A DNA stretch of 6,456 bases from Anaerolineales bacterium (GTDB lineage Bacteria > Chloroflexota > Anaerolineae > Anaerolineales > DRMV01), in the NCBI GenBank assembly GCA_027026295.1, contig JALVOR010000080.1, positions 1-6,456 on the forward strand. The letters run 5' to 3'. Positions 2,427 through 5,639 of this stretch are shown here, piece by piece (positions within the stretch are counted from its first letter, which is position 1; each line of letters opens with the position of its first letter). Both the position numbers and the translations under genes were made by a program. The notes below the pieces were generated by a model that did no database searches, had not been told where the DNA came from, and saw nothing but the letters and a program-made list of their open reading frames with translations.

Positions 2427-3047
2427 CTAAGGGCAACCACTGTAGGGAACAATTGGCACGGAAAGCGGCCTTGGACCCCACCCAATAGCAAAAGGAATCG
2501 TAACCGGCGGATTATCACCACAGACCACCGTTAAACGCTCCAATTCCTTACTCCCCATGACGACGTCAGCCGTGCTGTCGTCCGGACTGAACATAATCTC
2601 AAATGCCAAAGGGCCACTTACATCTGTGATAACGCATGCAGCGTTTGTTGATGCGCCACTGCCTGAATAAGGCGCCTCACCACGCACTGTGAATTCGTTT
2701 GGCGGAAGTGTAAACGCCATCGAACCTGAACCGCTGATATGCATGCTGGCATCTGTCAACTCGATATCAAATGCGCCTTCCCACGAACCATGAATACCTG
2801 AGCAAGTATGCACCGAAACGTGCAAAGTGGCCAAACCACTGGAAAGCGGCTGCGTGAATTCCAGAGCATAGCCTTTCGAAGCCGACGGAGGAATACCGGT
2901 GGGTGCGGAAGGCACAAGAACTGGTGTCGGTGTTGGCGTCGCCGTAGGCACAGACGTGGCACTCGACGCGACCGGTGTCCCGGGTGTAAAGACACAAGCA
3001 GAGAGCATGAGCGCTGAAAGCAAGGCAAGGACAAACGGGCTTTTCAT
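2427..3047 (-). CDS. Small secreted lipoprotein, unknown function
   Basis: The 206-residue product starts with a lipoprotein signal peptide: Lys2, a hydrophobic core (4-15) and the lipobox LSAC, so Cys18 would be lipidated and anchor the protein outside the membrane. A Thr/Pro/Ser linker (about 21-56, with repeated TP) leads to a beta-rich-looking domain (58-206) that I do not recognise. That domain holds four cysteines (82, 138, 176, 205), suggesting two disulfides. The start at 3047 is chosen because AGGAGAGGA (3054-3062 on the complement) lies just upstream and the signal peptide begins there; the longer frame to 3119 would add 24 residues across a hairpin. The gene has its own promoter near 3411-3439, a leader of about 360 nt and a strong terminator, so it is probably monocistronic. 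It is divergent from the larger lipoprotein gene. Composition is less GC-rich than that of the DUF711 gene. Confidence 0.85.
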   Translation of the reverse strand: MKSPFVLALLSALMLSACVFTPGTPVASSATSVPTATPTPTPVLVPSAPTGIPPSASKGYALEFTQPLSSGLATLHVSVHTCSGIHGSWEGAFDIELTDASMHISGSGSMAFTLPPNEFTVRGEAPYSGSGASTNAACVITDVSGPLAFEIMFSPDDSTADVVMGSKELERLTVVCGDNPPVTIPFAIGWGPRPLSVPIVPYSGCP

Positions 3048-3404
3048 TTTTCTTCCTCTCCTTTGGCGGCTTTGCCGCCCAACAGGAATGGCACTTGCCC
3101 CCGAGAACAGGCAACCCAAAGAACCTTAGCCAAAAACAGTGCAACTTCATTTCTCCCCCACGCTCCGCCAAAGGTGGGCGGCACAAGCGCATCGTAAAAC
3201 GACTTACTCGGGCGAGGTACCGTACCCCTCCGGCAAATTTCCCCCACCAGGAATCTTCCGGAGCAGATACCCGGGCAAATGCTCTGCTTCCAGCAGAGTT
3301 TTCCCTCTCGTTCTGTTACCTGACCGTCCGGTGGATCTTCGTCCGAGCCTCAAAGCCCGCGTCAGCATGTGTTGCTCTTCGCTCGAAAATCCACGCTTCT
3401 ATCC
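3048..3404 (-). promoter_or_regulatory. Candidate structured 5' leader (or ncRNA) upstream of the small lipoprotein
   Basis: Between the predicted transcript start near 3404 and the ATG at 3047 there is no gene but much inverted-repeat structure. An 11-bp helix (3384-3394 with 3331-3341, one G-U pair on the minus strand) encloses 42 nt. A 7-bp hairpin lies at 3282-3298. A broken 12-bp hairpin joins 3228-3233 to 3258-3263 with inner pairs TTCC/GGAA (3239-3242 with 3250-3253). GAGGTA (3214-3219) pairs with part of 3223-3230. Two GC-rich hairpins are at 3165-3181 and 3065-3079, the latter three bases before the ribosome binding site. No U-tract terminator is seen before the gene, so a cis-acting leader is favoured over a free RNA. 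I could not assign it to a known riboswitch, 6S, SRP, tmRNA or RNase P consensus. Confidence 0.5.
3065..3079 (-). promoter_or_regulatory. GC-rich hairpin abutting the small lipoprotein ribosome binding site
   Basis: GGCGGC-AAA-GCCGCC on the minus strand is a perfect 6-bp stem ending three bases before AGGAGAGGA. Its 3' arm plus the following AAAGG (3060-3069) is an exact complement of 3165-3174 in the same leader, so the arm has two alternative partners. Confidence 0.5.
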
Positions 3405-3410
3405 AATTAA

Positions 3411-3439
3411 AGTATAGCCCACGTTCCCTGTAAATGCAA
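3411..3439 (-). promoter_or_regulatory. Sigma-70-type promoter for the small lipoprotein
   Basis: On the minus strand TTGCAT (3434-3439), a 17-bp spacer and TATACT (3411-3416) form a good promoter. The start is expected near 3404, ten bases before the 11-bp leader helix. Confidence 0.65.
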
Positions 3440-3446
3440 CTTAAAT

Positions 3447-3474
3447 TTTACATAAACCTCTCTGTGTTGACACA
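3447..3474. promoter_or_regulatory. Operator-like inverted repeats between the divergent promoters
   Basis: TTTA-CA-TAAA (3447-3456) lies in the 27-bp space between the two -35 boxes, and TGTGT-TG-ACACA (3463-3474) is a 5-bp-arm palindrome that includes the plus-strand -35 box. Either could let one regulator act on both promoters. This rests on symmetry and position only. Confidence 0.3.
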
Positions 3475-3494
3475 CGAAAAGTTTGTGCTATCAT
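3467..3494 (+). promoter_or_regulatory. Sigma-70-type promoter for the large lipoprotein
   Basis: A consensus TTGACA (3467-3472), a 16-bp spacer and TATCAT (3489-3494), with an extended -10 TGC just before it, make a strong promoter. The start is expected near 3501, which gives a leader of about 250 nt before the ATG at 3750. Confidence 0.75.
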
Positions 3495-3500
3495 GAATAT

Positions 3501-3749
3501 GTAAAGACGCGCAAAATCTACAATACCGATACGCATCCTCCTTATCTTCTGACCTTTCAACACGGCGCTTGATAAAGGGGAAAGTATCAACGGGACACCA
3601 GGCGCCTTCATCGCAAATTTCTATGTTTCAAAACCCTGGGGGTGCGGCTTTTGCGCTGGCTTTATTCGTGCGCCATACGTTGCACCGGCCACGCTTCGCC
3701 AGTGGCCGAATCGTCCCTTGTCAATGATGCTCTCCATAAGGAGGATGAC
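3501..3749 (+). promoter_or_regulatory. Candidate riboswitch- or thermosensor-like leader with a perfect anti-Shine-Dalgarno
   Basis: CATCCTCCTTAT (3534-3545) is an exact 12-nt complement of ATAAGGAGGATG (3736-3747), which contains the entire ribosome binding site of the large lipoprotein gene. The closed form would enclose three hairpins. H1 is GGCGC/GCGCC (3564-3568 with 3602-3606), with TTGATA/TATCAA (3569-3574 with 3585-3590) stacked inside and an 11-nt one-sided bulge (3591-3601). H2 is GGTGC/GCACC (3641-3645 with 3682-3686), with TGGC/GCCA inside. H3 is CGGCCAC/GTGGCCG (3686-3692 with 3702-3708). Base 3686 can pair in only one of H2 and H3. A 12-bp basal stem that hides the SD, with a multi-hairpin junction above it, is the layout of a translational riboswitch or RNA thermometer. 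I recognise no known class, and the fold is read by eye. Confidence 0.55.
3738..3744 (+). promoter_or_regulatory. Ribosome binding site deciding the large lipoprotein start
   Basis: AAGGAGG lies five bases before ATG at 3750, where a signal peptide begins. The longer open frame back to GTG at 3642 has no such site and encodes no signal peptide at its start. This is the element masked in the leader model. Confidence 0.85.
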
Positions 3750-5639
3750 ATGCTCTTCTCGAAGGCTTCTTCACGGTATTGGCTTGCCGTTTTGGCGCTC
3801 CTGATGGCGCTGGCACTTGGGGCTTGCAATTTTCCCTCTCCCACGCCAACCCCCGAACCCAGCCCAACGGCCCCTCCAACCTGCACACCTGCTCAACTGC
3901 AACGCCCCACCAATGGAGCGCCTGCAAATTGGGAAGTAGTGACAAACACGCTCACCCCAACGCTTTCGTGGGATTACCCAGGCTCTGGCTGTGTGCCGGA
4001 GGCCTATGAAATTGAGATGCGCACCGGCCCGTTTTTCAGCGCAACCGACGCCGTGACCATCACAATTTCAGGAACACAAACTTCGGTGGACTGGCCCTAT
4101 ACGCTGGACCCCGCCACCGAATATGCATGGGCAGTCAGGCCTATGTCGGGGGGAACGCGCGGGCTTTCTGGCGGTTTCTACAAATTTCTCACCGGCCCCA
4201 TGTGTGGAGGTGCCAGCGCATTGGTAGCGCCCGTATTGGTTGCCCCACCCGATGGAGCAACCTACGACGACATTCACGACGATGGGCTAATGTGGGAATA
4301 TCCAGAGCCCTGCTTACCCACAGGATACCGAATCGATGTTTCCCCCTCGCCCGACTTCTCCGACACTTCGCTGAGCGGGGGAACGGGGAACCCCTCCACA
4401 GTGTGGGGCGTGGGGCACCCCATGGAGTCCTGCCAAGTTTATTATTGGCGGGTTGCCGCCATGATAGACGGCACTTCAGGGCCCTGGTCTGAAGTACGCT
4501 CCTTCGTTACACCCTCAGGCGCGACAAGTGAAGATTGCTCTCCCGCCACCATCCAAGGCGTGGTATGGCATGATCTTTGCGCCACACCTGCTGACAACAC
4601 TTCACCCCTGCCAGAGGGTTGCGTGGAAGAATCCGACGGCAGTATACACGCGGATGGCATCCGACAAGCAGACGAACCTGGCATCGAAGGTGTGGAAGTC
4701 GCTTTGCACGCCAATGCGTGCAGTTCCCCCGTGGTGGCGGTCGCCGTCACGGATGCCAACGGGGCTTATACCTTTGACAACATCACAGCCATGGGACATT
4801 ACTGCGTGAGCGTGACAGCGGCCGATCCTGTCAACACCGCAATTTTAGTTCCGGGCACGTGGACTTACCCGGAAGGCTTCCTGGACACAGACCCTGCAAC
4901 AACCGATGTCATCACCGCCGTTGGTGAAACTTCCACGGCTGATTTCGGCTGGGATTACCAATTCTTACCCATTCCACCGATGAGCGGCGGCAACTCACCT
5001 TTCTTCCATCTGACGAAAAACGCCTTTTGTCGGGAAGGCCCCGGCAAGGCTTATCCCAAAGTGGCAACGCTGACCGCCGGCACAGAGGTGCCTGTGGAAG
5101 GCCGCCTGGCTAACAACAGTTGGCTCTATGTTTACTGGAAACCTTACGATGTACATTGCTGGGTAGCGACTTATCTGGGTGAAGCCAGTGGAATTGAAGA
5201 CATCGTTGTGTTGACCCCGCCGCCACCACCTCCCACAGCCACCCCTTCCGATACAACACCTCCCACAATTTCCGATGTCCACGCCTTGGAACGCATACTC
5301 CATTATGCCAGCACAGCCAGCACAAGTTGCAGCAACACCACGCTGCACGTGGCAGCCAGGGTAAGCGACGACGGCGGCATCACCCAAAACAACATCCAGT
5401 TGGTATACCGCCTGGTGCCTGATAGTGGTAGTGCCGGGGCATGGCAAACGGCCCCCGTGCATGACGCCGCGATGGGCGGCCAGTTCGGCTTTTGGGTAGA
5501 GATGAATACGAAAGAGGTCTATGCCTTTATGCAACGACACAACGGGCACGTCGAGTTTTACGTGAGGGCTGTGGACAACGTAGGTAACGCTGCGCAAAGC
5601 GCCACGCAAAGTGTGCCGCTGCAATATTGCAACAGGTAA
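3750..5639 (+). CDS. Large multidomain lipoprotein (FN3-like x2, SdrD/Cna-B-like, SH3, C-terminal Ig-like)
   Basis: The 629-residue product has a signal peptide with lipobox LGAC (lipidated Cys26) and a Pro/Thr linker (29-47). Two tandem FN3-like domains follow (about 54-151 and 158-255), each with a W-[DE]-Y-P...C-x-P-x-x-Y-x-I core (73-88 and 182-196) and a later YAWAV or YYWRV strand. Residues 267-403 read as an SdrD/Cna-B-type domain, starting GVVWHDLC and including ADEPGIEGVEVAL (307-319), TDANGAYTF (334-342) and a D-F-G-W end. Residues 419-477 resemble a bacterial SH3 domain (CREGPGKAY...W...CWVATYL). A second proline-rich linker (489-505) leads to a beta-sandwich-like C-terminus (506-629) with FYVRAVDNVGNAA. 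Fourteen cysteines besides Cys26 suggest disulfides. The layout indicates an extracellular anchored adhesion or wall/ligand-binding scaffold; the ligand is unknown and no enzyme motif is seen. The gene has its own promoter, structured leader and terminator. Confidence 0.9.
   Translation: MLFSKASSRYWLAVLALLMALALGACNFPSPTPTPEPSPTAPPTCTPAQLQRPTNGAPANWEVVTNTLTPTLSWDYPGSGCVPEAYEIEMRTGPFFSATDAVTITISGTQTSVDWPYTLDPATEYAWAVRPMSGGTRGLSGGFYKFLTGPMCGGASALVAPVLVAPPDGATYDDIHDDGLMWEYPEPCLPTGYRIDVSPSPDFSDTSLSGGTGNPSTVWGVGHPMESCQVYYWRVAAMIDGTSGPWSEVRSFVTPSGATSEDCSPATIQGVVWHDLCATPADNTSPLPEGCVEESDGSIHADGIRQADEPGIEGVEVALHANACSSPVVAVAVTDANGAYTFDNITAMGHYCVSVTAADPVNTAILVPGTWTYPEGFLDTDPATTDVITAVGETSTADFGWDYQFLPIPPMSGGNSPFFHLTKNAFCREGPGKAYPKVATLTAGTEVPVEGRLANNSWLYVYWKPYDVHCWVATYLGEASGIEDIVVLTPPPPPPTATPSDTTPPTISDVHALERILHYASTASTSCSNTTLHVAARVSDDGGITQNNIQLVYRLVPDSGSAGAWQTAPVHDAAMGGQFGFWVEMNTKEVYAFMQRHNGHVEFYVRAVDNVGNAAQSATQSVPLQYCNR

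Follow-up and report, generated by a model that had tools for sequence, protein, structure and literature searches.

A 12-nt upstream complement of the Shine-Dalgarno region in the predicted leader of a lipoprotein gene from an Anaerolineales bacterium

Introduction

Translational riboswitches occlude the Shine-Dalgarno (SD) sequence within leaders that form alternative helices, and in the maturation gene of phage MS2 a leader with multiple hairpins is closed by an SD-complementary sequence located upstream, with translation preceding the folding of this leader. The MS2 5' untranslated region (UTR) has been mentioned to exemplify metastable structures that act in gene control (PMC6733600). In the type I toxin mRNAs hok and aapA3, an anti-SD sequence occludes the SD over a short or a long distance, and transient hairpins are formed during transcription. 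In these mRNAs, the long-distance anti-SD is located downstream, and a small toxin and an antisense RNA are involved (PMC6733600).

Here, we analysed a stretch of 6,456 nt (the window, referring to this whole stretch) from contig JALVOR010000080.1 of an Anaerolineales bacterium (assembly GCA_027026295.1), in which a putative long-distance anti-SD precedes a lipoprotein gene. The arrangement resembles the MS2 maturation-gene leader in that an upstream complement of the SD would close a leader containing several hairpins. Unlike in MS2, the gene resides on a bacterial chromosome, the predicted leader is longer, and delayed folding is a property that we infer. SD occlusion and putative alternative helices would relate the predicted leader to translational riboswitches, but a conserved aptamer was not found in 17 family and 395 class genomes. 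With hok and aapA3, it would share the occlusion of the SD by a complementary anti-SD, whereas the upstream position of the anti-SD and the product, a 629-aa lipoprotein, are different. We tentatively favour a model in which the complement pairs with the SD and likely damps translation of the lipoprotein gene in cis, with no ligand involved.

The lipoprotein gene and its predicted leader

The lipoprotein gene is located on the forward strand (3750–5639, with the ATG at 3750) and was identified by its open reading frame (ORF) and Pfam domains. Ig_Rha78A_N and SdrD_B domains score above the Pfam cut-off and an SH3_3 match falls below the curated cut-off, while a lipoprotein-type signal with a lipobox-like LGAC motif was read from the translation. 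This 629-aa multidomain product differs from the small toxins encoded by type I toxin mRNAs. Among 7,994 candidates scored, 202 protein homologues were identified at E ≤ 1e-20, and the nearest ones outside the window's own cluster share 51–52% identity; this cluster is listed with three member sequences and a longest contig of 11,705 bases. Relatives in two sister species are 54% identical, a paralogue in the same genome 49%, and the proteins in six further Chloroflexota records compared 39–47%.

A sigma70-type promoter is predicted at 3467–3494 on the forward strand (TTGACA-16-TATCAT, the second hexamer being preceded by TG) and matches 11 of 12 consensus bases. This score was reached in one of 1000 shuffles of 3421–3735, a score of 10 in 24 of 1000, and the best promoter-like site between the two complementary arms described below (3546–3735) scores 7. 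Judged from this match, transcription most likely starts near 3501, and the predicted leader would extend over approximately 249 nt up to the start codon (3501–3749, forward strand). The position of the promoter match ahead of both arms suggests that these are most likely contained in one transcript. A 34-codon ORF (3623–3727) was considered as a putative leader peptide and rejected, with no SD seen ahead of it; the one match to this ORF among 198 other genomes (E 2.1e-4) contains an internal stop.

Complementarity to the ribosome-binding region

The sequences CATCCTCCTTAT at 3534–3545 (forward strand) and ATAAGGAGGATG at 3736–3747 are perfect reverse complements of each other; the latter constitutes the ribosome-binding region of the lipoprotein gene, in which the SD core AAGGAGG occupies 3738–3744. 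The 12-nt anti-SD described in the original prediction is hence confirmed in both position and sequence. Pairing is exactly 12 bp long and is stopped by G3533/A3748 on the outside and by C3546/C3735 on the inside. AAGGAGG occurs once in the window, as does its complement, and ATAAGGAGGATG was found at these two places only in the 2.15-Mb assembly (82.5% complete). An interpretation of 3545–3534 as the start region of a minus-strand gene was rejected, as its SD would directly adjoin the ATG of an ORF of just 31 codons.

The original prediction also stated that a specific 12-mer is not expected by chance within about 200 bases; such a complement is rare for a single gene but not for a survey of many windows. 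Dinucleotide shuffling of the leader (5000 shuffles) never produced a 12-nt complement to the SD region and reached 11 nt three times, whereas five of 60,000 first-order Markov leaders contained a 12-nt complement at the lipoprotein-gene site. For a sister genome, of which 400 kb were sampled for 129 SD starts, Markov leaders contained one in 4 of 51,600 cases. The chance rate of such a complement is approximately 8e-5 per SD start (about 8 in 100,000), which provides a measured yardstick for similar finds. Extrapolated to the ~690 such starts per genome (scaled by length), about 0.05 would be expected per genome, and one chance occurrence would be encountered in a survey of some twenty genomes.

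Fortuitous complementarity, i.e., a 12-mer that arose by chance in a little-constrained intergenic stretch, was noticed through the inspection of many windows and has no selected role, is a serious possibility and a close rival of damping in cis. In this case, the complement would perhaps have little effect, with ribosomes loading before the RNA closes. In addition to the base rate, the ordinary frequency of such repeats agrees with a chance origin: perfect inverted repeats of at least 12 bp with spacers of 60–250 nt show no enrichment in the sister genome, with 17 in 400 kb compared to 14 after one shuffle of each stretch. A chance origin is less easily reconciled with the placement of the complement exactly on the SD and behind a strong promoter match, and with its length, as none of the other 204 SD starts scanned has a complement of more than 9 nt. 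At real starts, the longest complement was at most 9 nt both for the 129 sister-genome starts and for 68 starts in other loci, and for the eight starts in own-genome loci it was 12 nt at the window gene and at most 6 nt at the others.

The 12-bp inverted ends, which flank the interior of a 214-bp segment (3534–3747), could also be read as those of a small mobile element. However, the segment is present as a single copy in the assembly, none was found in 395 class genomes and a target duplication was not seen in its flanks; this reading is already contradicted and its probability next to negligible. Glycosyltransferase debris was considered as a source of the region because a 24-nt match elsewhere in the genome (L002) seemed collinear with 3588–3726; it was rejected, as the gapped alignment score of 165 is lower than the best of 1000 shuffles (191). 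Further short own-genome matches to 3640–3663 were observed (L003, L007 and L008). A phage origin was likewise discarded, with three phage records matching at E 0.8 over 30 bases, and the gapped pair of 12-mers had no match in viral contigs.

Predicted folding of the leader

The minimum-energy fold of 3501–3800 closes the 12-bp helix with a predicted P of 0.998 at 37 °C. As in an SD-masking leader, the anti-SD is part of the same predicted transcript as the SD and is predicted to pair with it, and the closed junction with a masked SD that had been envisaged from the sequence was also predicted by folding. The promoter match would put both arms in the transcript. Opening of 3736–3752 would cost 14.0 kcal/mol. 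When the anti-SD is removed by truncation of the transcript, this cost is still 6.2 kcal/mol, which indicates that masking is partly local. The opening cost of a 10-nt SD window is 12.4 kcal/mol compared to a median of 6.0 kcal/mol over the 129 sister-genome starts, five of which have predicted costs that are equal or higher (≥12.4 kcal/mol).

An RNA thermometer, in which warming would melt the helix and free the SD, had been put forward as one possible function of the leader, and the location of the SD within a helix is consistent with it. The helix consists of twelve perfect pairs, however, and is predicted to remain closed at 65 °C (P 0.98) and to persist even at 80 °C (P 0.85). By this prediction, it would not open at growth temperatures, which makes a thermometer extremely unlikely.

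The interior between the arms is no more structured than its shuffles (z −1.1, with 42 of 300 folding as well; z −0.8 with the arms fixed). Fold z-scores were −1.2 for 3500–3770 and −2.0 for 3501–3749, and a value of −3.6 for 3534–3747 was set aside because this segment had been picked for its arms. Two of the three hairpins initially proposed for the interior were recovered in the predicted leader fold, namely H2 (3641–3686, forward strand; 15 of 300 shuffles of 3639–3687 as good) and H3 (3687–3707, forward strand; 4 of 300 shuffles of 3687–3710 as good). Together, H2 and H3 are somewhat stable, with five of 300 shuffles of 3641–3712 folding equally well. The third hairpin, H1, with its 11-nt one-sided bulge (3591–3601), can be drawn but is absent from the predicted leader fold, and its energy is −8.6 kcal/mol, whereas the optimal fold of these 43 nt reaches −13.0 kcal/mol.

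Folding of the growing chain predicted a competing local hairpin around the anti-SD (3528–3588, forward strand), which is formed by the pairs 3528–3532:3584–3588, 3536–3540:3577–3581 and 3542–3546:3571–3575 and is mutually exclusive with the predicted 12-bp helix. The anti-SD is predicted to reside in this hairpin while the chain end lies between 3590 and 3740, and the long helix is first predicted with the chain end at 3750. Equally good folds of 3528–3590 were obtained in two of 300 shuffles. Leaders with shuffled flanks paired the anti-SD as fully in 21 of 400 cases by 3610 and in 28 of 400 by 3735, and the best duplex of the anti-SD with the interior was matched by 512 of 3000 shuffles. 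At these rates, the competing hairpin provides only mild support for a switch. A hairpin that is only mildly unusual (21/400) and an interior that is not unusual also agree with fortuitous complementarity.

Both structures would be used in a cellular folding timer, in which the early 5' hairpin (3528–3588) holds the anti-SD while the SD emerges and ribosomes load only on nascent mRNA, before the leader refolds to the stable closed junction and switches off the finished messenger. If this were true, output would track new transcription rather than mRNA abundance. We consider such a timer unlikely.

Distribution among related genomes

A homologous leader was not found in searches with DNA and a covariance model, which covered 17 other family genomes and 395 others of the class. 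In the family, the DNA of 3440–3830 had no match at E ≤ 0.01 in any of the 17 other genomes. In the class, where two candidates were scored per genome, 3050–3760 yielded short matches at E ≤ 0.1 in 68 of 395 other genomes, none of them longer than ~51 bases, and the best match (E 6.9e-4) is located outside the leader. A covariance model of 3564–3712, which was built from one sequence, retrieved the window alone at E ≤ 0.1 from 396 genomes under stricter filters, and its best match outside the window within the family had an E-value of 0.21. In Rfam, no family reached its gathering score.

These searches bear on the suggestion of a new translational riboswitch, in which a metabolite bound by the hairpins between the arms would decide between the closed helix and the 3528–3588 hairpin. 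The mutually exclusive predicted helices and the somewhat stable H2 and H3 are in line with such a switch, but neither an Rfam family nor a homologue was detected, a conserved aptamer shared by homologous leaders was not found in the 17 family and 395 class genomes, and the interior resembles its shuffles and has no conserved core. A riboswitch is therefore unsupported and, in our view, very improbable. The same low probability applies to an RNA or protein acting in trans, which would open the SD by binding to the anti-SD or the junction. High-level production of the protein from the masked state would require such an opener, but a conserved site was not seen.

The comparison of relatives of the lipoprotein gene was restricted to the nine that have a readable start and match over the full or nearly full length (L011, L012, L023, L032–L036 and L043); L037 was looked at and dropped, and partial matches, most of which concern the SdrD domain, had been removed before counting. 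All nine have an SD-like site, which is weak in L034. Their longest complement within 300 nt is shorter than 5 nt in three cases and 5 or 6 nt in six, their best promoter match comprises 5 to 9 of 12 bases, and their SDs are more open, with predicted opening costs of 1.7–7.8 kcal/mol (leader lengths of 60, 120 and 249 nt). An SD kept without the complement (≤6 nt), which the original prediction had named as evidence against a regulatory leader, was hence observed in 9 of 9 relatives compared. As the leaders of these relatives are not recognisably homologous, this demonstrates a lack of conservation and not a lack of function. The lack of conservation also agrees with fortuitous complementarity. 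Judged from the genomes compared, the anti-SD/SD arrangement appears to be specific to one species or its close kin.

Proposed mode of action

According to the damping model that we tentatively favour, the anti-SD at 3534–3545 would pair with the SD in messengers made from the predicted promoter and likely damp their translation. Ribosomes would be kept off the closed SD, and expression would be low or derive mainly from nascent transcripts. The SD is made ~200 nt after its complement, and translation might thus be possible before the SD is captured; the local hairpin at 3528–3588 would hold the anti-SD meanwhile and lengthen this open period. The simplest reading of the model is a constitutive damper, with translation being low and perhaps occurring mainly on nascent mRNA. 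Provided that the transcript is as predicted, the mask should be present irrespective of how it arose.

Masking in cis is supported by an exact complement that is unique in the assembly and was obtained in 0 of 5000 shuffles and five of 60,000 Markov leaders, by a promoter match before both arms with no good promoter between them, and by the predicted helix (P 0.998) with its opening costs of 14.0 kcal/mol for 3736–3752 and 12.4 kcal/mol, versus a median of 6.0 kcal/mol, for the 10-nt window. Evidence against it includes the lack of a homologous leader in the genomes searched, the missing complement and more open SDs in the nine relatives, the five of 129 starts with an equal or stronger predicted masking, the 6.2 kcal/mol that are required even without the anti-SD, the shuffle-like interior and the chance expectation of ~0.05 per genome. 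If the mask works, a Chloroflexota lineage would provide an example of SD masking over a long distance in a leader that lacks a recognisable aptamer. As only one species was seen with the mask, masks of this type would escape comparative RNA searches.

Additional features of the window

A divergent small lipoprotein-like ORF is located on the minus strand (2430–3047). The 17 other genomes of the family contain no relative of it at E ≤ 1e-5, and its own genome has just one weak match (26%) elsewhere. This ORF would have a long, GC-rich leader of 394 nt (3047–3440, minus strand), the fold of which is not clearly better than that of its shuffles (z −1.4, five of 100 as good). The only Rfam match in this leader is sX4, with 18.8 bits compared to a gathering score of 70.

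At the beginning of the window, positions 1–126 are 100% identical to G000:C142:5353–5478, and 748–778 has an exact 31-nt match directly beside it on the other strand, which perhaps reflects an assembly overlap or a misjoin at the contig end. Furthermore, the intergenic segments 1721–1770 and 1810–1852 have many copies with 84–88% identity in both the own genome and the sister genome G005 and represent a dispersed short repeat.
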